DNA from: Bacteroidales bacterium
GTDB lineage: Bacteria > Bacteroidota > Bacteroidia > Bacteroidales > Bacteroidaceae
Assembly (NCBI GenBank): GCA_030532685.1
Contig: JAUNKN010000011.1
Span: forward strand, 17,490-50,284
Direction: 5' to 3'
Length of the DNA: 32,795 bases
Shown here piece after piece: positions 1,781 through 12,700 of this stretch. The notes below the pieces were generated by a model that saw nothing but the letters and a program-made list of their open reading frames with translations, searched no databases and was not told the origin of the DNA. The first letter of the stretch is position 1. Every line of letters begins with the position of its first letter. A program made the position numbers and the translations under genes.

Positions 1781-4552
1781 TTAGCGCATCACCTTTCGTC
1801 CGTCTATGATGTAGGGTTGTCCAGCGGTAGGTTGTGCAACGCGGCGTCCTTGGAGGTCATAAATGCCAGCGGGAGCGGCGGGAGTAGCAGCCTCTTGCAC
1901 TTTTTGCAAGCCCGAGGGAGCAACAAATTTTCCCGTGACTGCTGCCTTGCGGAGCGCGGCCACCAAAGCCTTGTCGGGGCTGAGGCTAAAATTGTCGTAG
2001 AGATGCCAGAAATTGCCCTTTTCGCGTGCATGGCTGTTTTGGCTCACTTCTACGCCATTGCTGGCCTCGGGATTGAGGCACACGTCATTATAGGCTGGGC
2101 GCTTGCTTCCTTGGTCGAGTGCCGTGAGGACAAAACCTTGTTGGTCCTTGCGGATTTGCACGAGAATGGGCTGGTCGCTCATGCTGCTGGCACTAAGTTT
2201 GCCAGCTGTGGTGGGATTGAAAAATTTGCCCGTGCCCAGATTGTAGATGAGGTAGTGAGGGCGGTGGTTGTCGGCCCCAACGATGAGCCAGTTGGCACTT
2301 TCTTGAGAAAGTTCGACAGCGGGCTGATAGGCAGCCTGCACCAGCTTACCGTCCTTTGGAGCAGCACCGCGCAGAGTGGGGTAGGCCACTCCTTCGGCAT
2401 TGACCAGTGTGCCGTAGCCGTAGACATTGGAGAGGAGGTAGGCTCGCTCGGCATTGAGGTCGCTCATTTGTGTCACAGGGCCGTATTTCACGAGTTTGGC
2501 TGCATGGGAGAGGTGCGTGAGGGCGGTAGAGAGTTGCTCGGGAGTGGCTGTGGCGAGCTGCTGGTACACGGCACCGAGATATTTTTCTACATCGGCCTTC
2601 GTATAGCGATTAAACTGGCCTGCATTTTCATAGTGTTCTTTCAACAGCTGGCGCAAAGCCTCGGGATCTTTGGTCGAGAAGTTGATTTCGGAAATGGCCA
2701 TAAAATGCTCGCCGTGGCCATAGCCAGCGGTGAAGTAAAGGCGGAGTTGACTGCCGGAGGGGAGAGTGAGCGGAGCGGTGAGCCGTATGCTTTGCTCGGT
2801 GTCGTCGGGCAGCGTGTAGGTGCCCACCGTGCTCCAGTGTCCAGCGTTTTGCACCTGCACCTGCACGGTCTTGGCCAAATATTGCTTGCTCGTGTGTTTG
2901 CTGGAAGTGGTCAGGTCGATTTGGTCGATGACCACATCGCCATCGTGCACGAAGCTGATGTAGTGAGGATAGTTCTTTTGATTGTAAGAAGCGCCTACCC
3001 ATTGTGTGTGCCAGTAGGTTTTCTTGTCGCCATCGAGTACGTATTTGGCCCAACCATTGTTGGCCCCTTCGCCCGATTGTTCCTGGCTGCTGTAAGCCTT
3101 GACCTTCCATTGAGATTGCGGAGAGCGCACGAGCACATCGGCAATGGCTGTTTGCATGCGTTGTATATCCTGTGTTTGGAGAGCGGGCAAGACATTTTCT
3201 GCAATGAGGCCCTCCAATTCGGCATCGGAGGGCAAGAAGTCGCCTGCCTCTACATAGGGAATGGTGAACCGACGGCCATCGCCTTGAGGCATGTCGGGCT
3301 CGATGTAGCCGCCACTTTGCATGTAAACTGCGGGCTCGCCTTCAAAATCCTTCTTCCAAGTTTGATGGCGGTCGTTGCGCGCACCTTTGGCATCTCCGCC
3401 ATCGGTGTGCCCGAAGCTGAATATGTTGCGGTTGTACCAAGTGGCGCCCTGCATGGAACGGGTAAAGATGCGGCGATAGTAGGCCTTGTGCTTCATGTGT
3501 CCCTGGCTGGTGTTGCCACGCGTATATTCCTCCAGAAAGGCATTGAAGCCAGAACCGAAGTAGCGTTTTTGTCCCGCCATGCGCTGTGAGGAGATAAAAT
3601 GCCACTTGTTGTCAAGACCGCGCACATTATACCACGCGGAGATAATCAAGTTGTCGTAGTTGGAACCATCTTTCAGTTGGATTTGTTCTGGGCGCACGTT
3701 GAGCAAGAAGCGCACCCATTTGCCAGGACGCCAGTAGTCGCCGTTCATGATCACGTGTACGCCCGTACCTTCGCCACGAAAACGTTCGGACACGGTGTGC
3801 TGTTTGGTACTGTCGATGGCCAGCACACCACTGCGCTTGTAGTTGGCCAAGGCAGGGTCAGAGTCGGTGTCGCCATTGTCCCACGTAGAGAAGATAATGG
3901 TGTGGTTGCGTGTCGTCTTGTCGCCCATCCAACCATTGTTTTGGATACCAATATAGCCTCCTGCAAAGCCAAAGGCTTCGACATAAGTGCCCAAATAGTC
4001 GGCCTCCTCAGGAATGAGCACTTCGTCGTAGATCCAATCGAAAGCATCGCCCGCAGGAAGTTTGGGGTGGGTCGAACTGAAAGTGTTCAGGTGCAAGGAA
4101 GGAACGCTTCGCCAATCGGCCAGATAGACCGCATCCTTTCCTTTTACATCGGTAGAGGAGATGGAAAAGTCGTGTAGCTGCTCGTTCGTGCGCCCGTCTG
4201 TCAGGACAAAACGATACCATGCCGCTTCCGAAGCTCGGAAAGAGAAATCTTTTGCATCGTTCTTTGTCGAAACATCTTGGTTGGTATTCATGTTCCGAAT
4301 GTCGATTTTCCCATGGTTTTGCGACTTTACCGAGTAGTTGCCCTTGGGAAAGCGAATGTACCAAGCAGGCATAAAACCTCTTCGAGGATATTGCTCCGAG
4401 TAGCCCAACTGTTCGGTACTTTTTCCTTCTTTGTCGATGATGTAACCACCCGCAGTGCCTTGATTGGCCACTTTGATGGTCCACGACGTCTGTGCGAAGA
4501 GCCATGGCGAAACCAATAGCCCCGCGAGAAAACAGAAAAGTTTTTTTCTCAT
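1781..4552 (-). CDS. Secreted DUF3472 protein with F5/8-type C (discoidin-like) domain
   Basis: Large exported protein of 923 aa, probably acting on or binding extracellular glycans; the substrate is unknown. It has an N-terminal signal peptide ([21 protein letters not shown]). A beta-rich N-terminal region of about residues 22-165 is followed by a DUF3472-like domain at about 169-400, with [23 protein letters not shown] and many conserved aromatics. About 480-627 (WKVKAYSSQ to AISEINFS) reads as an F5/8 type C carbohydrate-binding fold. The last 28 residues ([10 protein letters not shown]...YIIDGRKVM) form the short C-terminal motif common on secreted Prevotella-type proteins. It resembles, but is not clearly, a type IX secretion signal. 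The gene is monocistronic, with a promoter-like site about 230 nt upstream and a structured leader. The domain assignments are from memory of the families, not a search. Confidence 0.8.
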
Positions 4553-4567
4553 AGTAACGATGTGTAT

Positions 4568-4750
4568 TTAAGACAAAACGCTGCAAAACCTACGGCGTTT
4601 TGCTTGTGAAAAAGAGTGTTCCTGCAGAAAGCTCTCTCCTCGCCTTAGCAGCGAGAGAAGCTGTTGTACTTTACGGAGCCAATAGAGCGAAGCATCCTCC
4701 TTATTCTTATTGCGCTCTACGGCTTCGCTGATTTCAACAAAGGGAATCAT
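4568..4750 (-). CDS. Possible 60-aa leader ORF upstream of the DUF3472 gene
   Basis: An open frame (MIPFVEISEAVERNKNKED...) starts about 20 nt downstream of the expected transcription start of the promoter-like site at 4779-4786 and ends 15 nt before the DUF3472 start. It would therefore lie in the same mRNA. The product would be a basic, partly helical peptide with no family I recognise. It could be chance coding in a 5' leader. Confidence 0.25.
   Translation of the reverse strand: MIPFVEISEAVERNKNKEDASLYWLRKVQQLLSLLRRGESFLQEHSFSQAKRRRFCSVLS
4574..4602 (-). promoter_or_regulatory. Alternative hairpins in the DUF3472 leader
   Basis: CAAAACGC (4574-4581) pairs with GCGTTTTG (4595-4602). An alternative stem, GCAAAAC (4583-4589) with GTTTTGC (4597-4603), uses the same 3' half. 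The two folds exclude each other, an arrangement seen in attenuators. No T-run follows on the minus strand, so the function is uncertain. Confidence 0.3.
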
Positions 4751-4778
4751 TGTGTGAAAGGTGCCATAAGGAGACTCG

Positions 4779-4786
4779 CAAAGTTA
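4779..4786 (-). promoter_or_regulatory. Bacteroidetes -7 element for the DUF3472 gene
   Basis: The minus strand reads TAACTTTG, an exact TAnnTTTG match, inside an A/T-rich stretch. No good -33 TTTG is seen at the expected distance. It implies a leader of about 220 nt. Confidence 0.45.
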
Positions 4787-5163
4787 CGTATTTTTCAAAA
4801 TAAAGAATAGTCTTTTTTTCTTTTTCTTCAAGCACATGGGGAATGTGGGGGAGGGAGGAGAGAGAACATTGTCTCATTCGATACTCTTTGTTCCTACGGG
4901 TTTTCTTCTATGTTTTTCGACACTATTTTCATAGAAGGACATACCTTGTTGATGTACGGTTGAGAGAAAGAAATACAGATAGTAGTGAGGAAATTCGAGT
5001 TTTTATGATTAATCCTCGTAAGGAGAGTTTACTTTATGGATTTGTGATATTAAATTCTAATTATTTTGTACATTTGCTCGTGCAATAGTCTGCTGTCTGC
5101 AAGAATATTTTATGGAGCAAGAAACTTTGCTTTGGGGGAGGACCTTCTGTTTTGTAAAAAGAG
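4787..5163. other. A/T-rich intergenic region upstream of csx27-like gene
   Basis: The region separates the divergent DUF3472 gene and the CRISPR operon. It is clearly richer in A and T than the housekeeping flanks. An 81-codon open frame at 4843-5088 has no start context or family resemblance and I do not call it. The only recognisable signal is the -7-like element at 5069-5076. Confidence 0.5.
5069..5076 (+). promoter_or_regulatory. Candidate promoter of the csx27-cas13b operon
   Basis: TACATTTG is an exact TAnnTTTG match. The nearest TTTG upstream (5041-5044) is 24 nt away, longer than the usual 19-21, so the -33 part is weak. It predicts transcription from about 5083, some 80 nt before the first gene of the type VI-B operon. 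Confidence 0.45.
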
Positions 5164-5736
5164 ATGACTCTTGCTCCTCATTTCTCACCTTTATCTTTTG
5201 TCTTTATGTCTGCTTTATCGAAAGAACATCTCGAGATAGCCAAACGTATTGAAGAGTTGAACAATTATGTTTCTTCTTCGCTCACTTTAGTAGAAGCCAA
5301 GCATGCTTCTTTTGTTGCTTTGCTGTTGGTTTTCTTAAGTGGGGTGTTAGAATTGGAATTCTCGAAAATGAAGAGCCTTTCGACTCTGTTTTTCTTACTT
5401 AGTGTTATTGAATTATTGATTTGTATGGGGATAAGTCTTTGGGCGCTTTATCCTCGGGCTTCAGGGAAAAGAAAATATAAAACGACTTCCTGCGAAAGAT
5501 TACTGTTTCGTTGCGAAACCCTCGAAGAGCTTTCTAAGGAGCAGCTGCAAGAGCTCTTGAAAAAAGATTGTTCAACCTATCGATTTAGTGAGTACGAACA
5601 AGCAAAAATAGAGAGCCTGCTCAATGCTTCTAAAGCGGCTGCACGTAAGTATCGCTTGTTTCGCTGCTCACTCCAATGTTTCGCCGTGTTTATTGTTTGC
5701 TTTTTACTCCTGATTCTCTCTTACATCCTTTTATGA
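5164..5736 (+). CDS. csx27: Csx27-like membrane accessory protein of type VI-B CRISPR
   Basis: Small integral membrane protein of 190 aa (176 aa if the ATG at 5206 is used). It sits directly upstream of cas13b, the position of Csx27 in type VI-B1 loci. Csx27 was reported to dampen Cas13b interference in tested systems. Visible are an amphipathic N-terminal helix (about 18-40), TM1 at about 48-66 preceded by EAKHASF, TM2 at about 72-96 ending in LYPR, a charged cytosolic segment of about 97-160, and a C-terminal TM at about 168-190 after KAAARKYRLFR. No RxxxxH motif is seen, which argues against Csx28. The arrangement (N-terminal helix, EAKxA motif, 2TM hairpin, LxPR, soluble segment, KY...R then TM) resembles the PycTM/DUF5706 effector fold. 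Its stop overlaps the cas13b start in ATGA. Naming rests on context and topology rather than clear sequence identity. Confidence 0.7.
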   Translation: MTLAPHFSPLSFVFMSALSKEHLEIAKRIEELNNYVSSSLTLVEAKHASFVALLLVFLSGVLELEFSKMKSLSTLFFLLSVIELLICMGISLWALYPRASGKRKYKTTSCERLLFRCETLEELSKEQLQELLKKDCSTYRFSEYEQAKIESLLNASKAAARKYRLFRCSLQCFAVFIVCFLLLILSYILL

Positions 5737-8700
5737 CTCCATCTTCCTCTTCTGTCCCTTATTCCGTTGAATGGCATCTTCGGCAATTTGTCATGCAAAA
5801 GCCCAATGTGGCGCCTGTTGTCGATAAAAGTCTTAGAAATATAGAATGCCAACGCAACTATTCCTCAGACAAAAAGTCTGGGGAAATAAAAGAGTTCTTA
5901 CTTGAGCGTGGGCGACACCGCCTCTACTATTTTGCGGTAGGGCACAAATGGAAGTCTTTGTCTCCTGTGGCATTCCAGCGTTGTTATGACGAGGAGCAAG
6001 ACAGATACCACGTCAACGATTATCTCGCTCTTCAAAAAGAGTACTTCCCTCAAGTAGAGGCGTTTAAGAAACTTGTGGAGAACCTGCGCAATCTCAATAG
6101 CCACTACATGCACAGTTTTCAGTTTCTCAAAATGGAAGAGGAGCATGACGTGATGAGGCGCTTTCTGCTTGAGGGGTTCCGTATGGCCGTTACTATGGTC
6201 TATTTTGATCAAAAGGACATATGGAAAGAGCTTCGCGCAAAGGTAGATGAAGAGAACAGAGCGATGAACTTTACATCTGAACAATACGAAGAGCGTTTGC
6301 AGGGGGAGTATCGTCGATGGATTTTGAATCCTCTGCATCAAGGCCTACTCCATTCTTTCTTGTTCGAGAAGTTCTTTCCAATACTCAGAACCAATACTCA
6401 GAACAAGCAGGAGGAAAATAAACAGTACGAAAAGTGGCGCAACAAGATGGGCAAGCTCTCTTTCGAGAACTTGCTTGAACGCGTGCTCTTTTTTGAGGTA
6501 CCCTCCGATTTCGATTGGACAATCGGCCAAGGGCATCGCTTGTTCTGCGTAGAAAAAGGGACGTACCTTTCTTTTGTAGGTGCGCTTTTTCTGTTGTCCA
6601 TGTTCCTTTACAAGGACGAAGCCAACCTCTTGATTTCCAGAATCAAGGGCTACAAGCGAAACGAAGGAAAGGAGATGATGGCCAAACGCGATATTATGAC
6701 CTTCTTTTCCAAAAAGGTATCGGCACAGGATTTTGATTGCGAGGAGAAAGATCTCATCTATTTTCGAGACATTCTGCTCTACTTAAGTAAATATCCCTTG
6801 GAGTGGAACGAGGTATTGGAAACTACAGAAGAGCAAACCTCGGCCATCTCCGCGCTAAAAACTTCCATTGCCAAACTGGAGGAAGCCCGCATTTTAGAAG
6901 CCTTCCCCAAGTTTTATCCCTCTGGAACCATCTCCTCTTTCATCGTAGGCAAAAACTCTCGTCCCACTCCCACCCCTCCGGCGCTTCCTTATTGCACTTT
7001 CCTAAAGCAACGAGAGCACGAAAAGGAGCAGCAGCAGCAACAAATAGAGGCGGCCAATCGTGTGCTCGACACCCTCGAGCGTCGCTTGGACGACCAAACT
7101 TTCTTTTCTTCTTACGGGCGCAATGAGGATCGTTTCATAGAGTTCGCCCTTCGCTTCCTTTGGCAAGAAGGCTACTTTGGGCAGGATGCCCTTATCAAGT
7201 GCTATCGTTTCTACACGACCGAGGAGCAAACAGAATTTTTGGAGGAAGCTCGACAAACAATGCCCAAGAAGGAGTTTGACAAACTGAAGTTTCATCGAGG
7301 CCGCCTCACTCATTTCGTGAGCTTTACCGAGCATAAGGCTCTGTATCCAGAGTGGGACACACCTTTTGTCGTCGAGAATAAAGCGGTGCAGATTAAAGTC
7401 TGTTTGGAACAACAACAAGTTTTGTTCTCCTTCCAGCGTCCACTGTTGATGGTGCTCTTGCAGCACGCCTTGCAGAGCGCGACAGTGCTCAATAGTGGAT
7501 GTGGTCTTCTCTCGGGCTACTACAAGCACTACCAGGAACAATTTACTAAAGTTCGTAAGACCTTCGAAGAGAGCCTGCAGGAGAGTATAGGTTCAGAATC
7601 TCCAATGAGTACAACTCCAGCGTTCCGAAAAGAGGCCAAGCGATTACTGCCCCGTCGTGCCCTTCGCCAGCTGGATGCTCCCGCTCTTCTTACCAACGAG
7701 AAGCAGACTTTGGAGCAGTGGCTCGTCGATGCTGAGCGCGAAGCAGAACGCTACCAAACGCGCTTGGAGCACGTGCGCGAGCTTGCCCGCAAGAACCATC
7801 GCCCTGAACTCCTAACTCACTTTCTTAAAAAGAACAAGGGCAAACAATTCAAACTCCGTTTCATCAAGAAGGTTTGGAACCTCCTGTTTTTCAAGCCCGT
7901 CTATCAACAACAACTCTTGGCCAATGAGCGAGGAGTCCCCGAACATCACAAAGCCTTTCACCTTACGCGCGACGAGTATAAGGATTTTTGTCGCTACCTA
8001 TTTGCACTCGATAGTGTGCCTCACTATAAGGTGCTCTTGCGTGAACTCCTCGAGAGAAAAGGTTTCTTGAGCGATGAGCAATTCCGAGAGATTTTTGAAT
8101 CGGAGCATTCGCTCAGCGGTTTTTACGACCGCACCAAAGAAGTTTTCTCCACTTGGCTCTCCACCTTTAGCCCTGCTCCTCGCTCTGACCGCTATGTGCT
8201 CTCGGCCTATAAAAACTTACCTAATATCGCCGAGCTGTCTCCTCGCCTTTTTGAGCAGCCTCCTCACATCCTTTACATCAATTTAAAGCACTTTTTGGAC
8301 TACGAAAAAAGCAAGCACGCAGCAAAGAGCGGTGTGACGAAGCAATATGCCTACGCCCTGCCGCAGAACCAAGAATACCTCGTATCGACCTACTATTTGG
8401 AGGGAGTACAGGAGGAAAAAGTGCTGCGTAAGCTCCACTTCAAGCTCCGCAACACTCGTGTAGAGGATTGCCTGCTCTACGAGTTGGCCATGCGCTATTT
8501 GCACAAGGGGAAAGACCTCCAAGAGAGTGCTCGAGCTGCTGTTGGAGAACTCCTTCAAAGAGAACTCGAACTTTCCATCCCACTTAGCGATGGTTCCACC
8601 TATCATCTCACCTTTCCTTTCAAGCATTTGGAAAAGGTCGAATCTATGCTGCAGTATGATCACGAAAAAAAGATGTTGCAAGAAGCACCAAACTACCTGC

Positions 8701-9293
8701 AATTGCAGTTCAACTCCTCCGCCAAGAATCGCCCAGCACCACAAGACATTAAGGCGATGCACCAGCGCTATCAACAGGAGCAGAAGCTCTCGCTCAACGA
8801 CTTTGAAAAACTAAAATCGAAACTCATAGCCCAAGCGGGAACTTTCCTACCCATTATCTTGGACTTGGAGCGGTATTTTTTGCTCAAGGAGGGTATCTCC
8901 CTGCCCAGCAATAAGCACTACATCCCTTACAAAGAAATGAAAGTCTTGCACCATTTCGTAGAGCGTGAAATACGCAATCGTGTTTGTCACTTCCGTTTTC
9001 CTGAGAAATCCTACCCCAAACTTATCGCTGAGGTGGAGCAGAAGTTTTTGCAGCAAGAAAAAGAGGAGTGGAAATCTTGCCTTTCTGCTTCTCTCCCCGA
9101 AGACTTCTCAGGCTTTCCTCCTCCTTTGCGCGACCTACTCTTCGATTTCTTAAAGGCCATACATGATAAGTTCTTTGACCATAAAATAAAGGATAGTCAA
9201 GAGAAGAAATGCCAAGCACAAAAACGATATATTCGAGAGGTCTTGTCAGCTGTGCTTGCTTATAGTTCTGCCAAAACTCCTTCTGAACACTAA
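5733..9293 (+). CDS. cas13b: Cas13b, type VI-B RNA-guided RNase
   Basis: Single-protein effector of type VI-B CRISPR. It processes its crRNA, binds target RNA, and cleaves target and bystander RNA with two HEPN domains. Read from the ATG at 5733 it is 1186 aa, within the family range. The frame is open 19 codons further upstream, but the ATGA overlap with the upstream stop marks 5733 as the coupled start. The N-terminal HEPN motif is R119-N-L-N-S-H124 and the C-terminal one R1081-N-R-V-C-H1086, near the two ends as in Cas13b. Other family-like stretches are the FLLSMFL...IKGYK helix, EDRFIEFALRFLWQEG, the basic KGKQFKLRFIKKVWNLLFF segment and HHKAFHLTRDEYKDFCRYLFALDSVP. Both catalytic arginines and histidines are intact, so the enzyme should be active. 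The CRISPR array follows by 34 nt in the same orientation. Confidence 0.96.
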   Translation: MTPSSSSVPYSVEWHLRQFVMQKPNVAPVVDKSLRNIECQRNYSSDKKSGEIKEFLLERGRHRLYYFAVGHKWKSLSPVAFQRCYDEEQDRYHVNDYLALQKEYFPQVEAFKKLVENLRNLNSHYMHSFQFLKMEEEHDVMRRFLLEGFRMAVTMVYFDQKDIWKELRAKVDEENRAMNFTSEQYEERLQGEYRRWILNPLHQGLLHSFLFEKFFPILRTNTQNKQEENKQYEKWRNKMGKLSFENLLERVLFFEVPSDFDWTIGQGHRLFCVEKGTYLSFVGALFLLSMFLYKDEANLLISRIKGYKRNEGKEMMAKRDIMTFFSKKVSAQDFDCEEKDLIYFRDILLYLSKYPLEWNEVLETTEEQTSAISALKTSIAKLEEARILEAFPKFYPSGTISSFIVGKNSRPTPTPPALPYCTFLKQREHEKEQQQQQIEAANRVLDTLERRLDDQTFFSSYGRNEDRFIEFALRFLWQEGYFGQDALIKCYRFYTTEEQTEFLEEARQTMPKKEFDKLKFHRGRLTHFVSFTEHKALYPEWDTPFVVENKAVQIKVCLEQQQVLFSFQRPLLMVLLQHALQSATVLNSGCGLLSGYYKHYQEQFTKVRKTFEESLQESIGSESPMSTTPAFRKEAKRLLPRRALRQLDAPALLTNEKQTLEQWLVDAEREAERYQTRLEHVRELARKNHRPELLTHFLKKNKGKQFKLRFIKKVWNLLFFKPVYQQQLLANERGVPEHHKAFHLTRDEYKDFCRYLFALDSVPHYKVLLRELLERKGFLSDEQFREIFESEHSLSGFYDRTKEVFSTWLSTFSPAPRSDRYVLSAYKNLPNIAELSPRLFEQPPHILYINLKHFLDYEKSKHAAKSGVTKQYAYALPQNQEYLVSTYYLEGVQEEKVLRKLHFKLRNTRVEDCLLYELAMRYLHKGKDLQESARAAVGELLQRELELSIPLSDGSTYHLTFPFKHLEKVESMLQYDHEKKMLQEAPNYLQLQFNSSAKNRPAPQDIKAMHQRYQQEQKLSLNDFEKLKSKLIAQAGTFLPIILDLERYFLLKEGISLPSNKHYIPYKEMKVLHHFVEREIRNRVCHFRFPEKSYPKLIAEVEQKFLQQEKEEWKSCLSASLPEDFSGFPPPLRDLLFDFLKAIHDKFFDHKIKDSQEKKCQAQKRYIREVLSAVLAYSSAKTPSEH

Positions 9294-9327
9294 TTTGAAG
9301 TGACAACGGGTTATAAAAAACACACAG

Positions 9328-10220
9328 AAAGTGTATTCCCCTATTTTGTGGGGTAGAAACAACAGATGGTATCGCGCTGGTGTCGCGCAAATCGTTGTAA
9401 GTGCCCCTATTTTGTGGGGTAGAAACAACAGAAAAGGCGATATTGTTGCCCAAACACTTGTTGTAAGTGCCCCTATTTTGTGGGGTAGAAACAACCTTAG
9501 ATGCTAATCGTGAGAAGACATTCTTGTTGTAAGTGCCCCTATTTTGTGGGGTAGAAACAACGCAAAAGTATTTGGCGTACTTTGATGTACTGTTGTAAGT
9601 GCCCCTATTTTGTAGGGTAGAAACAACAATCCATACCATCTCGAAGATTGATATTCGTTGTAAGTGCCCCTATTTTGTAGGGTAGAAACAACTCCCATCG
9701 CAGGAATTGCGCTTGGATGTCGGTTGTAAGTGCCCCTATTTTGTAGGGTAGAAACAACGAGAAGCCCATATATTTGCATAGATGGTCAGTTGTAAGTGCC
9801 CCTATTTTGTAGGGTAGAAACAACCTATAGGTCGGCATATATTTTCACTATTGAGTTGTAAGTGCCCCTATTTTGTAGGGTAGAAACAACTTGAGGAGGG
9901 TTTAGGTGGTCTAACGGGGGGTTGTAAGTGCCCCTATTTTGTAGGGTAGAAACAACGATTGTGAAAGCGTTATATTCGTTTGTTGTGTTGTAAGTGCCCC
10001 TATTTTGTAGGGTAGAAACAACAGAGCCGAGGAATTTATAGCAAAATTGAGAGTTGTAAGTGCCCCTATTTTGTAGGGTAGAAACAACCCTATGAATCGT
10101 ATAATCAAGTTTGCTCACGTTGTAAGTGCCCCTATTTTGTGGGGTAGAAACAACTATCATGAATGTCTTACGAAGGGAGATCTGGTTGTAAGTGCCCCTA
10201 TTTTGTGGGGTAGAAACAAC
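9328..10220 (+). CRISPR. Type VI-B CRISPR array, 14 repeats and 13 spacers
   Basis: The 36-nt repeats begin GTTGTAAGTGCCCC and end GGGTAGAAACAAC. Repeat starts are 9328, 9394, 9460, 9526, 9592, 9657, 9723, 9789, 9855, 9921, 9987, 10053, 10119 and 10185. Spacers are 30 nt except the fifth, which is 29. The 5' GTTGT and 3' ACAAC can pair and the central CCC/GGG encloses a TTTTG loop, the form of Cas13b repeats, where the repeat is the 3' handle of the crRNA. Orientation by this rule is plus, the same as cas13b. Repeat position 23 is G in repeats 1-4 and 13-14 and A in repeats 5-12. Repeat 1 differs at 7 of its first 10 bases and is then perfect. No spacer matches another part of this window that I could see. 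Confidence 0.98.
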
Positions 10221-10304
10221 TCTTTTTTTGAGGCAGCAAGAGGAGAAAAATAGACATGAAGAAGGCTGGATACAACTTTGCACTGAAGCCGCAAATTTTA
10301 TGGG

Positions 10305-10353
10305 AAAACAACCGCAAGCGAAGAGTTCAGAGCTCAGGGATTGCGGTTGTTTT
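10305..10353 (+). terminator. Terminator closing the CRISPR transcript
   Basis: A 13-bp stem (AAAACAACCGCAA at 10305-10317 with TTGCGGTTGTTTT at 10341-10353) merges into a T-run reaching 10355. It lies 85 nt after the last repeat and would end the pre-crRNA. Confidence 0.85.
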
Positions 10354-10355
10354 TT

Positions 10356-10825
10356 AGGCAGAGGGGAGAGAAACAGCCGAGTAGATAAGGCTATTTAGAG
10401 GAGGTGAAGATGGAGATGCTCTCTTATCGCTTTGGTATGAGTTCGGAGAGGCGTTTCGCATTTGATGCAGGAGAGCCACGCTCGGCAAATGAGGAGGTAG
10501 GCCTGCGAAAATGAAGGAGCGAAGCTCCCAACTTGCAGGGTGGCAAACGAAAGTGGGACGCAGAATTTCTTGAGCACAAAGTCCCTCAAGGAGCGAGAGA
10601 GCAAAGGGAGTTGCAGAGGGAGAATGGCATGGAGCTGCTCGAAGGAGGAAGATGAAGGCGAGGGAGAAGTGCTGGGTGGGGCGCTCGGAGCAGAGGAGGA
10701 GGGGAAGGGTGGAGAGGAGCAGGCCGAGAGTGAGGAAGAAGCACGGAGTGCCGATTTGTCGAGGAAGTGGCCGAGAGGGCTTTCTTTTTTTCAAGGTGGG
10801 GCAAAACAAAGCCAACTTTTTTCGC
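10356..10825. other. Purine-rich intergenic region before dnaX
   Basis: About 470 nt without a convincing gene. Bases of about 10630-10760 on the plus strand are almost entirely G and A. The open frames here (minus 10354-10815, plus 10540-10860) owe their length to this skew and look low-complexity. A small hairpin, GGAGC-GAA-GCTCC, lies near 10514-10526. Confidence 0.5.
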
Positions 10826-10833
10826 TATCTTTG
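10826..10833 (+). promoter_or_regulatory. -7 promoter element of dnaX
   Basis: TATCTTTG matches TAnnTTTG and lies 20 nt before the chosen dnaX start. It therefore excludes the longer upstream frame as coding. A clear -33 element is not seen. Confidence 0.6.
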
Positions 10834-10852
10834 CCGAAAAGAAATCCGTCCC

Positions 10853-12700
10853 ATGTCTGACTACATCGTATCGGCGCGAAAGTATCGCCCCACGAGCTTT
10901 GATAGCGTTGTGGGGCAAAGCGCGCTGACCACCACCCTCAAAAATGCCATAGCCTCGGGCAAACTGGCACATGCCTACTTGTTCTGTGGCCCTCGTGGGG
11001 TGGGCAAAACCACCTCGGCACGCATCTTTGCCAAGACCATCAACTGCTTGAGTCCTACGCCCGAAGGCAATGCCTGCGAGCAGTGTGAGAGTTGTGTGGC
11101 CTTCAACGAGGCGCGCTCCTACAACATTCACGAGCTGGACGCGGCATCCAACAACTCGGTCGACGACATACGCCAGCTCATCGAACAGGTGCAGATTCCT
11201 CCTCAGGTGGGACGCTACAAGGTGTTTATCATCGACGAGGTGCACATGCTCTCACAGGCGGCTTTCAATGCCTTTCTGAAAACGCTCGAGGAACCTCCGG
11301 CTCATGCCATATTCATTTTGGCAACGACCGAGAAGCACAAAATCTTGCCCACCATCCTCTCGCGCTGTCAAATCTACGACTTCAACCGCATGGAGGTGGC
11401 CGACACCGTGCGCCACTTGATGCACGTGGCGCAGAGTGAGGGCATACAATATGAGGAGGCCGCCTTGCACGTCATAGCCCGAAAAGCCGATGGCGGAATG
11501 CGCGATGCCCTGTCGATTTTTGACCAAGTGGCCTCGTTCACGGGAGGCAACATCACCTACCAGCAAGTCATCGACAATCTCAACGTCCTCGACTACGACT
11601 ACTATTTCGACATCACCGACCAGCTCTTGGCACAGGACATTCCTGCCGTGCTGCTCACGCTCAATAAGATATTGAGTCGCGGCTTTGAGGGCAACCATTT
11701 CATGGGCGGTTTGGCCTCGCACCTGCGCGATGTGCTCGTGAGCCGCGATGCGCAAACACTTCCGCTCCTGGAGGTGGCCGAGGCCGTGCGTGAGCGCTAT
11801 GCTCAGCAAGCACAACGCTGCACGCCTCAATTCCTATATGCTGCGCTGCGGCTGTGCAATGAGTGCGACATGAACTATCGTACGGCACGCAACAAGCGGC
11901 TTCTCGTTGAGCTAACGCTCATACAAGTGGCGCAACTCCTCGCCAGCGAGGAGGAGGCGCCGAGTGGTGGGCGTCGCCCTGCGCGACGTCTTCTCCCCAT
12001 CTTCTCGCCCGCGGCCCCAGTAGCTGAGGCTGCGGCGCCCCCCCGAGTGGCCACTCCTGCGCCCTCGGTGGCTTCCGTTGCGAGTGCTGCTCCTGCGGCT
12101 GTGCCTGCGGCCAGCACTCCTACCATACCTCCTGCGGCGCGCCCCACGGCTGCGCTCCCTGCGGCCATGGCTCAACGCTTGCAAACGGTATCGCTCACGC
12201 GCCGCACGGCACCGGGCATGCCATCGGCCCAACCCGCTGCTGTGACTCCACGCTCCACGACCAATATCCCTACACCGGGCGAGCGAACGTGGCGCACGAA
12301 GAGCTTCGACCTCGACACGCTGGCCTACCAGTGGATGCGTTTTGCCAATGAGCTGCCGCGCGAGCATAGTGCTGCCGCAGGCCGCCTGAAACTCATAGCC
12401 AGCGAGACGGAGCGCTTCCAATTCTCTCCCCCTGTGGAGGGAGCTGAGCAGGCGGTGCCCATACAGGTGCTCATCGAAAATGCTCCCGCAGCCCAGCTGC
12501 TCAACCAGCTCCTGCCCGAACTGACGGTGCACTTGCGCAACACGCTGCAAAACGATTTTGTACAAGTGTCGTTCGTGGTCGATACGACACAGGTCATCAA
12601 GAAACGCGCGCACTCGCCGCGTGAAATATACAACGAGATGCTGAACAAAAATGCAGCATTCAAAGAATTGGCCATCAAGCTCCGCTTGGAGTTGGCCTAA
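10853..12700 (+). CDS. dnaX: DNA polymerase III subunits gamma/tau
   Basis: Clamp-loader ATPase of the replicative polymerase; it opens and loads the beta clamp together with delta and delta'. The protein is 615 aa from MSDYIVSARKYRP, the normal N-terminus. Walker A is G46-PRGVGKT53, zinc-module cysteines are C65, C75, C78 and C81, and the Walker B region is FIID128-E129. The SRC sensor motif follows (ILSRCQIYDF). Domains I-III occupy about the first 365 residues. They are followed by an Ala/Pro-rich linker (about 380-470) and a C-terminal tau-like region ending in KNAAFKELAIKLRLEL, a helix like those that bind the polymerase subunit. No slippery heptamer that would make a separate gamma form was noticed. 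The partner delta gene (holA) is at 30367. Confidence 0.97.
   Translation: MSDYIVSARKYRPTSFDSVVGQSALTTTLKNAIASGKLAHAYLFCGPRGVGKTTSARIFAKTINCLSPTPEGNACEQCESCVAFNEARSYNIHELDAASNNSVDDIRQLIEQVQIPPQVGRYKVFIIDEVHMLSQAAFNAFLKTLEEPPAHAIFILATTEKHKILPTILSRCQIYDFNRMEVADTVRHLMHVAQSEGIQYEEAALHVIARKADGGMRDALSIFDQVASFTGGNITYQQVIDNLNVLDYDYYFDITDQLLAQDIPAVLLTLNKILSRGFEGNHFMGGLASHLRDVLVSRDAQTLPLLEVAEAVRERYAQQAQRCTPQFLYAALRLCNECDMNYRTARNKRLLVELTLIQVAQLLASEEEAPSGGRRPARRLLPIFSPAAPVAEAAAPPRVATPAPSVASVASAAPAAVPAASTPTIPPAARPTAALPAAMAQRLQTVSLTRRTAPGMPSAQPAAVTPRSTTNIPTPGERTWRTKSFDLDTLAYQWMRFANELPREHSAAAGRLKLIASETERFQFSPPVEGAEQAVPIQVLIENAPAAQLLNQLLPELTVHLRNTLQNDFVQVSFVVDTTQVIKKRAHSPREIYNEMLNKNAAFKELAIKLRLELA

Follow-up and report, generated by a model that had tools for sequence, protein, structure and literature searches.

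A divergent Cas13b locus with a PycTM-family membrane protein in the partner position in a Bacteroidales bacterium

Organization of the locus and its CRISPR array

The window, the whole 32,795-nucleotide stretch of DNA analyzed here, carries a compact locus whose features all lie on the forward strand, as follows.

5164–5736, + strand: gene for a PycTM-family membrane protein of 190 aa (PF18967, PADLOC models, hydropathy, and same-slot homologues in genomes G942, G822, G201, and G118)
5733–9293, + strand: gene for a divergent Cas13b of 1186 aa with two HEPN motifs (PADLOC PDLC01469; NCBIfam VI_Cas13b at 46.2 bits, under 150)
9294–9327, + strand: 34-nt gap between the Cas13b stop codon and the first (degenerate) repeat, the probable leader side of the array
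9328–9363, + strand: first repeat, which is degenerate on the 5′ side and has 7 mismatches in 36 positions
9394–10220, + strand: 13 intact 36-nt repeats in two variants (fold, covariation)
10305–10353, + strand: hairpin resembling a terminator, with a T run after it (inverted repeat I5; fold z = −4.25)

The open reading frames, the array, and the motifs thus confirm what an initial annotation had described, namely, a two-HEPN protein of about 1186 aa with a small multi-TM gene upstream and a 36-nt-repeat array downstream; the terminator that it placed at the locus end is likewise supported by the predicted fold of the final hairpin and the U run after it. This hairpin was absent from the output of a simple terminator scan of positions 4500 to 10700, and a scan for sigma-70 promoters gave a result no better than shuffled sequences. 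The stop codon of the membrane gene overlaps the Cas13b start in an ATGA (5733–5736), through which translation of the membrane protein is probably coupled to that of Cas13b. An alternative ATG at 5676 would yield a 1205-aa effector; we took the 5733 start because the longer frame overlaps the upstream gene and the alignment of the relatives begins at 5733.

In the array (9328–10220), 14 repeats, each 36 nt long, enclose 13 spacers; one spacer measures 29 nt, and the other 12 are 30 nt long. Two repeat variants differ at a single base, with the G form at both ends and the A form as a middle block of eight. Both are predicted to fold into a hairpin (z = −4.12 for the G variant and −2.24 for the A variant); in the predicted fold of the first repeat, the outer stem is unformed because the 5′ side is degenerate. 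The hairpin was further evaluated by covariation among 10 repeats from nine loci, in an alignment that contains neither the 35-nt repeat of locus L014 nor the second L028 array and whose L028 row, shifted by one base, is missing the final base of the repeat. In this set, 93.6% of cells pair, versus 35 to 52% when the partners are slid, and five pairs have changed on both sides. Values as high were reached by 0 of 500 shuffles on four of five measures and by 230 of 500 on the fifth (further pair types). The array has the 36-nt hairpin repeat, spacers of about 30 nt, and orientation on the cas13b strand of type VI-B loci. No spacer target was found by exact matching of spacer cores, which covered 6 of the 13 cores in IMG/VR and 1 of the 13 in phages.

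The effector and its membrane partner

The effector carries RNLNSH at residue 119 (R119 to H124) and RNRVCH at residue 1081 (R1081 to H1086). Both motifs are intact, as initially annotated, and also conserved, their R, N, and H being invariant in all four clade members. The profile search that the annotation had proposed gave a divided answer: the PADLOC Cas13b model PDLC01469 matched the protein strongly (5.3e-77, 258 bits), whereas NCBIfam VI_Cas13b scored 46.2 bits against a curated cutoff of 150. That cutoff was passed by none of six effectors from PycTM- or Cap15-bearing loci, compared to all three canonical Cas13b proteins. In a profile-profile comparison, the lineage of the window aligned with three canonical Cas13b proteins over just 85 columns (E = 3e-5, probability 73%), and a sequence search found no PDB relative. 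Taken together, the sequence comparisons support the assignment of the effector to Cas13b, as a divergent lineage. The claim of a Cas13b within a complete type VI-B-like locus is accordingly upheld by the PADLOC VI-B model, repeat covariation, and the profile-profile match.

For the identity of the upstream protein, the initial annotation was not supported. It had proposed a Csx27-like partner; however, neither Csx27 nor Csx28 PADLOC models matched the protein at E values up to 1, while genuine Csx27 and Csx28 proteins, one of each and taken from other genomes, matched their own models at 2e-63 (1.7e-63) and 2e-46, respectively. Comparison of the partner family profile with those of Csx27 and of Csx28 using hhalign also found nothing, and both identifications were rejected. 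Instead, the protein matched PF18967 (PycTM, known as the membrane effector in the anti-phage system Pycsar) at 30.8 bits, above the Pfam cutoff of 27.2, and the PADLOC 2TM Effector and PycTM models at 4e-14 and 2e-12. A weak match to NCBIfam mob_CxxC_CxxC (21 bits versus a cutoff of 70) was set aside. The type VI-B1 label, which rests on a Csx27 partner, is accordingly not supported.

By hydropathy, the partner has hydrophobic segments at about residues 48 to 66, 72 to 90, and 172 to 190, with roughly 80 aa separating the second and third. The partners in G942 and G822 share this three-segment pattern with the PycTM of G066, which adjoins two Pycsar-type cyclases; in the G201 and G118 partners, the first segment lies under the threshold used. 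Csx27 shows four hydrophobic regions and Csx28 one. PycTM has been described as a disruptor of membrane integrity, with cyclic pyrimidines as its home ligands (PMC11224242). The grouping of the Cas13-linked membrane proteins into a single clade is insecure, with support of 56/50 in a tree that left out 6 of 10 long PycTM frames not picked by the motif filter.

Occurrence of the arrangement in other genomes

The order of a PycTM-family gene, a Cas13b-like gene, and a same-strand CRISPR array recurs in four other Bacteroidales genomes (G942, G822, G201, and G118), and the five loci span two Cas13b lineages. All five partners exceed the PF18967 cutoff, four of them only just: 30.8 bits in the window, 28.4 in G942, 30.3 in G822, 28.0 in G201, and 50.8 in G118. 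Where the window has the ATGA overlap, the gap between the two genes is approximately 2 nt in G942, 1 nt in G822, 13 nt in G201, and 170 nt in G118. In Mongoliitalea lutea, a relative of the same lineage, the partner slot holds the CBASS membrane effector Cap15 (PF18153, 39.9 bits, cutoff 31.2), a finding from one genome; the home ligands of Cap15 are cyclic dinucleotides. We found no earlier report of a PycTM-Cas13b pairing in the open-access literature searched.

A PycTM domain is present in 13 of 149 Bacteroidales genomes, including that of the window, and two of the four small stand-alone PycTM frames in this set, one being the window's, adjoin a Cas13b-like gene and CRISPR. A search with the partner across 301 genomes of the family returned five matches. 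Two were the query's own rows (window and G201), and G942 and G822 adjoin a Cas13b-like gene and CRISPR; the fifth, in G931, is weak, has internal stops and no Cas13b nearby, and was left out of the count. Also left out were Cas13b-model matches in G709 and G543, short frames judged by eye as not Cas13b. A weak score was also noted for G201, and the count of five loci stands. In G238, Cas13b is cut by the contig end and a partner is not visible.

The effector itself is rare. tblastn against 61 genomes (its own and 60 relatives) recovered only itself, and among 393 genomes of the order PDLC01469 matched the window and, weakly, three others. A clade I profile matched two of 58 genus members and three of 395 genomes from the phylum; these three were the window and the marginal G095 and G1256, with G095 representing a canonical Cas13b. 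Viral contigs (pattern-based search), phages, and plasmids yielded no match to the window effector, nor did plasmids to the M. lutea effector or the window partner.

We also searched these genomes for Pycsar-type cyclases, using two models, PDLC02367 and PF00211. The PycC model PDLC02367, which matched the G066 positive control, had no match in the window genome (G000), G942, G822, G201, or M. lutea. Among the five PycTM-bearing genomes it matched only G118, where a PycC-like domain lies within a 1198-aa frame on a contig other than that of the locus. The class III cyclase family PF00211 had no match in five genomes tested, G118 not among them; it is an imperfect probe, as one G066 cyclase of the two scored under its cutoff, and completeness is only 77% and 86% in two of the genomes lacking a cyclase match, the latter being G000. 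No Pfam cyclase was found at E values up to 1e-4 in a scan of 20 other open reading frames of the window. In M. lutea, the sole SMODS nucleotidyltransferase match is on a contig other than the Cap15 locus. Elsewhere in G000, Cas1 is encoded beside Cas9 and Cas2.

Proposed function and alternative explanations

Among known systems, type VI-B2 (Cas13b with Csx28) resembles the locus in its two-HEPN Cas13b, its 36-nt hairpin repeat read on the same strand as Cas13b, its small membrane partner and, by analogy, a probable membrane-disruption arm. However, the partner here is of the PycTM family, has three hydrophobic segments, and lies upstream of and overlapping cas13b, whereas Csx28 (as in L016) lies downstream, has one segment, and matches other models; a Csx28 partner was not found, and the effector scores far under the NCBIfam Cas13b cutoff. 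Type VI-B1 (Cas13b with Csx27) has the same layout of a multi-TM gene directly upstream and an array downstream (as in L015), but neither sequence nor profile comparison found similarity of the partner to Csx27. Pycsar (PycC with PycTM) has in common with the locus a membrane effector of the PF18967 family; here, in contrast, Cas13b and then the CRISPR array take the position of the adjoining cyclase, and PF00211 and PDLC02367 were unmatched in the 86% complete G000. The likeness to CBASS lies in the Cap15 partner of M. lutea, although the SMODS match there is not on the Cap15 contig.

On balance, we think it fairly probable that the locus provides RNA-guided anti-phage defense of a type VI-B-like kind, with a PycTM-family membrane effector occupying the slot of Csx27 in VI-B1. 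Transcription of the array would begin on the Cas13b side, the transcript would be processed into guides of spacer plus repeat, and the HEPN RNase would be activated by a guide that matches phage mRNA. At that point the PycTM-like protein would breach or depolarize the inner membrane, so that growth arrest is added to the decay of RNA, much as with Csx28 in VI-B2. The cas1-cas2 genes next to cas9, elsewhere in the genome, could provide new spacers in trans.

Alternatively, the partner could be a membrane tether whose sole role is control of Cas13b, as the slot shared with Csx27 and the coupled production suggested by the ATGA overlap might indicate. We regard this as unlikely, since the G066 relative adjoins cyclases of the Pycsar type, a setting in which members of this family are membrane effectors (PMC11224242), the M. 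lutea slot is filled by another membrane effector, and, according to a 2025 classification (PMC12669027), Cas13b immunity is augmented by Csx27 as well as by Csx28. Membership in a cyclic-pyrimidine receptor family raises another explanation, that the partner is gated by a cyclic nucleotide and answers a separate cyclase in the cell, the operon merely pooling two defenses; the PycC-like domain of G118 and the SMODS nucleotidyltransferase of M. lutea, each on another contig, fit it. The PycC model was nevertheless unmatched in four of the five PycTM-bearing genomes and PF00211, with the limits in probe and completeness given above, in all five genomes tested with it, and we consider this explanation improbable.

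A type VI-B1 locus with a divergent Csx27, as initially annotated, has position and multi-TM nature in its favor, yet the Csx27 model that detects a real Csx27 is silent here, profile-profile comparison found no similarity, and the PycTM match exceeds its curated cutoff; already disfavored, it now appears very improbable. Least credible is a chance juxtaposition of an unrelated 2TM gene with Cas13b. PycTM domains do occur away from Cas13b; even so, gene order is kept at five loci and in two Cas13b lineages, half of the small stand-alone PycTM frames adjoin a Cas13b-like gene and CRISPR, and so do two of the three non-query matches (G942 and G822) in the family-wide search.

Thus, judged from sequence, the locus most likely encodes RNA-guided immunity coupled to membrane disruption, Csx28-like but with a module drawn from cyclic-nucleotide signaling. 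Given a PycTM-type partner in some relatives and Cap15 in one, our data suggest that Cas13b borrows interchangeable membrane-attacking modules.

How such a module might be triggered is a more speculative matter. HEPN cleavage leaves 2′,3′-cyclic phosphate ends, and collateral decay would therefore release small cyclic-pyrimidine products. Conceivably, though we give it a rather low probability, Cas13b itself supplies the trigger, these products being sensed by a retuned PycTM-like or Cap15-like receptor. If so, type VI would gain a second-messenger arm of its own, parallel to cyclic oligoadenylate signaling in type III, and Cas13b would work with exchangeable membrane effectors that are gated by nucleotides. 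With members of two receptor families of known home ligand in one slot, the activation of Cas13b membrane partners becomes testable, and the membrane arm of Cas13b immunity would be shown to be modular and common to Pycsar and CBASS.

The locus and its effector

The window (G000:C34:17490-50284) lies in a genome of 1.87 Mb that is 86% complete. The locus comprises the following features:

5164-5736, + strand, membrane protein of 190 aa
5733-9293, + strand, two-HEPN protein of 1186 aa, overlapping the membrane-protein gene by ATGA
9328-10220, + strand, CRISPR array with 14 repeats of 36 nt
10305-10353, + strand, strong terminator-like hairpin

A 36-nt-repeat array downstream of the effector, followed by a terminator, had been proposed in the initial annotation, and the array and a terminator-like hairpin are present, the hairpin being absent from the output of a simple terminator scan. 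On the left, the locus is adjoined by a gene for a 923-aa protein with DUF3472 and F5/8 type C domains (1781-4552, − strand), and the right flank holds a dnaX-like gene (10652-12700). The G+C content is 45% in the locus versus 53% in its flanks. The gene upstream of the pair differs between two loci: a DUF3472 protein (Pfam) in the window, and a 988-aa frame, judged by eye only, in the related locus of G942, a genome of the same genus. Low G+C and a differing upstream gene are compatible with horizontal acquisition but are no proof of it.

The same annotation had called the large protein a Cas13b, and profile searches bore this out: the effector matched the PADLOC VI-B Cas13b model PDLC01469 with an E value of 5.3e-77, although its NCBIfam VI_Cas13b score was just 46 bits, against a required 150, and the PADLOC and NCBIfam scans listed no other Cas13 type's model. 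Among PDB chains, there was no match for the effector alone (E up to 0.001) or for profiles of three (E up to 1) or four members (E up to 10), while a control profile of three canonical Cas13b proteins retrieved 6dtd, 8wf8, 8wfb, and 6aay. By its sequence matches, the window effector is a divergent Cas13b.

Related effectors fall into two clades. Clade I contains the window effector and those of G942 (47% identical), G822 (36%), and Mongoliitalea lutea (NZ_BMYF01000020.1; 32%); clade II consists of G201 and G118, which share 31% identity across 1129 columns and carry two HEPN motifs. As proteins, the clade II effectors had no PADLOC or NCBIfam match, the G201 protein bearing a 39-residue N-terminal read-through in one of those scans; in a six-frame search, the NCBIfam Cas13b model gave G201 a score of 27 bits. 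In profile-profile comparison, clade II aligned with canonical Cas13b over 296 columns (E 4.5e-8, probability 95%). Clade I matched clade II weakly (57 columns, E 0.002, probability 13%; 56 columns and 7% with G201 alone). Furthermore, in a tree of ten effectors, each clade was supported at 100/100, and their grouping together was weak (75/80, with a long-branch warning).

Repeats and the array

A set of ten repeats, drawn from nine loci, retains one two-helix fold with compensatory changes; it includes canonical VI-B repeats and two variants from one locus, and leaves out the L014 repeat and one array of L028, the G822 locus. In L028, two arrays with slightly different repeats lie on both sides of the same PycTM-Cas13b pair (127-294 and 5819-6052, Cas13b orientation).

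As described in PMC13187072, type VI systems with spacer-repeat crRNAs would produce an undesired "extraneous" crRNA from the first repeat, which in many cases is kept from doing so by base-pairing to the leader. The window array agrees with those systems in orientation and form. Instead of being blocked by the leader, however, its Cas13b-proximal first repeat (9328-9363) has lost the 5' stem half, with mismatches at 7 of 36 positions, and the predicted fold of leader plus first repeat contained no leader-repeat hairpin. We suggest that a degenerate first repeat may be another route to avoiding the extraneous crRNA. Unlike the window, loci L027, L032, and L015 have their degenerate repeats at the far array end. 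A block pattern was also seen at 9592-10088, where eight consecutive repeats carry A and both flanks carry G (TTTTGTAGGG versus TTTTGTGGGG).

Identity of the membrane partner

The small upstream protein had initially been considered Csx27-like. This identity was rejected: neither Csx27 nor Csx28 models matched the window partner at E up to 1, while control proteins matched their own models strongly (L015 Csx27, 1.7e-63; L016 Csx28, 1.9e-46) and had no PycTM match. Instead, the partner passed the Pfam PycTM cut-off (PF18967; 30.8 versus 27.2 bits) and matched the PADLOC 2TM and PycTM models, and hhalign comparison of the four-member partner family with Csx27, Csx28, and Cap15 found nothing. Hydropathy likewise sets it apart, with three hydrophobic segments versus four regions in Csx27 and one in Csx28. 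The G942 and G822 partners share the three segments, positioned as in the G066 PycTM protein beside two cyclases; in the G201 and G118 partners, the first segment is under threshold.

Cyclase searches used the PDLC02367, PF00211, and SMODS models, on genomes including G000 (86% complete) and G822 (77%). PycC PDLC02367 had no match in the G000, G942, G822, G201, and M. lutea genomes, one in G118 (on another contig, within a 1198-aa frame), and two in the G066 control. PF00211 matched in none of five genomes (G118 not among them), and a SMODS nucleotidyltransferase occurred in one of five, M. lutea, on another contig. Cas1 was found in four of five, the exception being G822. In G000, it sits between Cas9 and Cas2, and new spacers could accordingly be acquired in trans. 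That locus, L059 (G000:C46), encodes Cas9 (1499 aa), Cas1, and Cas2 at 2931-8777, with no repeat array seen in the 16 kb examined.

Recurrence of the pairing and the partner slot

In five loci (the window, G942, G822, G201, and G118), a Cas13b-like gene is preceded by a PycTM-family gene and shares its strand with a CRISPR array, and all five partners passed the PF18967 cut-off. The genes overlap or are separated by at most about 15 nt; only in G118 is the gap wider, at about 170 nt. G201 emerged when 395 genomes were searched with a Cas13b model. In 301 family genomes, a profile built from the partners of the window and G201 gave five matches: the two query rows, G942 and G822 beside Cas13b-like genes, and a weak match with internal stops in G931. 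G118 came from a search independent of these loci, in which PF18967 was run against 149 genomes of the order and yielded 14 matches in 13 genomes, ten in frames of 307-445 aa and four in frames of 167-192 aa. The short frames lie beside Cas13b-like genes in the window and G118 and beside two cyclases in G066 (PF00211, 25.5 and 16.7 bits, cut-off 21.9; both match PADLOC PycC models); the remaining one, in G166, had neither gene type adjacent, its neighbors being judged by eye. The long frames are apparently a separate widespread family, and the one tested had a C-terminal PycTM domain and an HD domain just under the Pfam cut-off. PycTM domains in frames of roughly 300-445 aa were seen, for example, in L060 (G167; 5579-6784) and L038-L047.

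Not every Cas13b has a PycTM-type partner. Among other complete Cas13b loci from the model surveys (G1256 left out), G095 has Csx27 and G651 has Csx28, and G055 and G129 had no such partner gene among frames of at least 80 aa. In the membrane-protein tree, the five Cas13-linked proteins formed one group, but its support was just 56/50. The partner of G201 grouped with clade I partners (81/86), whereas its effector grouped with G118, a mismatch that may reflect exchange or noise.

No report of the PycTM-Cas13b pairing was found in the open-access literature searched, which included passages of PMC11014256, PMC12642688, PMC12669027, PMC10910872, PMC11224242, and PMC13187072 and part of the main text of Hu 2022; an earlier report may exist. 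The 2025 classification mentions notable diversity of VI-B associated genes, citing Hu 2022 together with a 2025 paper in Cell (PMC12669027).

In M. lutea, a 211-aa protein encoded 0-3 nt upstream of the clade I effector matched Cap15 (PF18153; 39.9 bits, cut-off 31.2) and ten PADLOC 2TM effector models (1e-21 to 6e-10). Cap15 is a CBASS effector that binds a cyclic dinucleotide, oligomerizes, and disrupts membranes (PMC11014256). One effector lineage thus has, in the same position, two nucleotide-signaling membrane effectors with no similarity found between them. Judged by sequence, the partner slot appears modular, with one Cap15 case. The predicted RNase and guide functions of the locus are well grounded by homology; the putative membrane arm is grounded by family membership and by analogy to Csx28 (PMC12669027).
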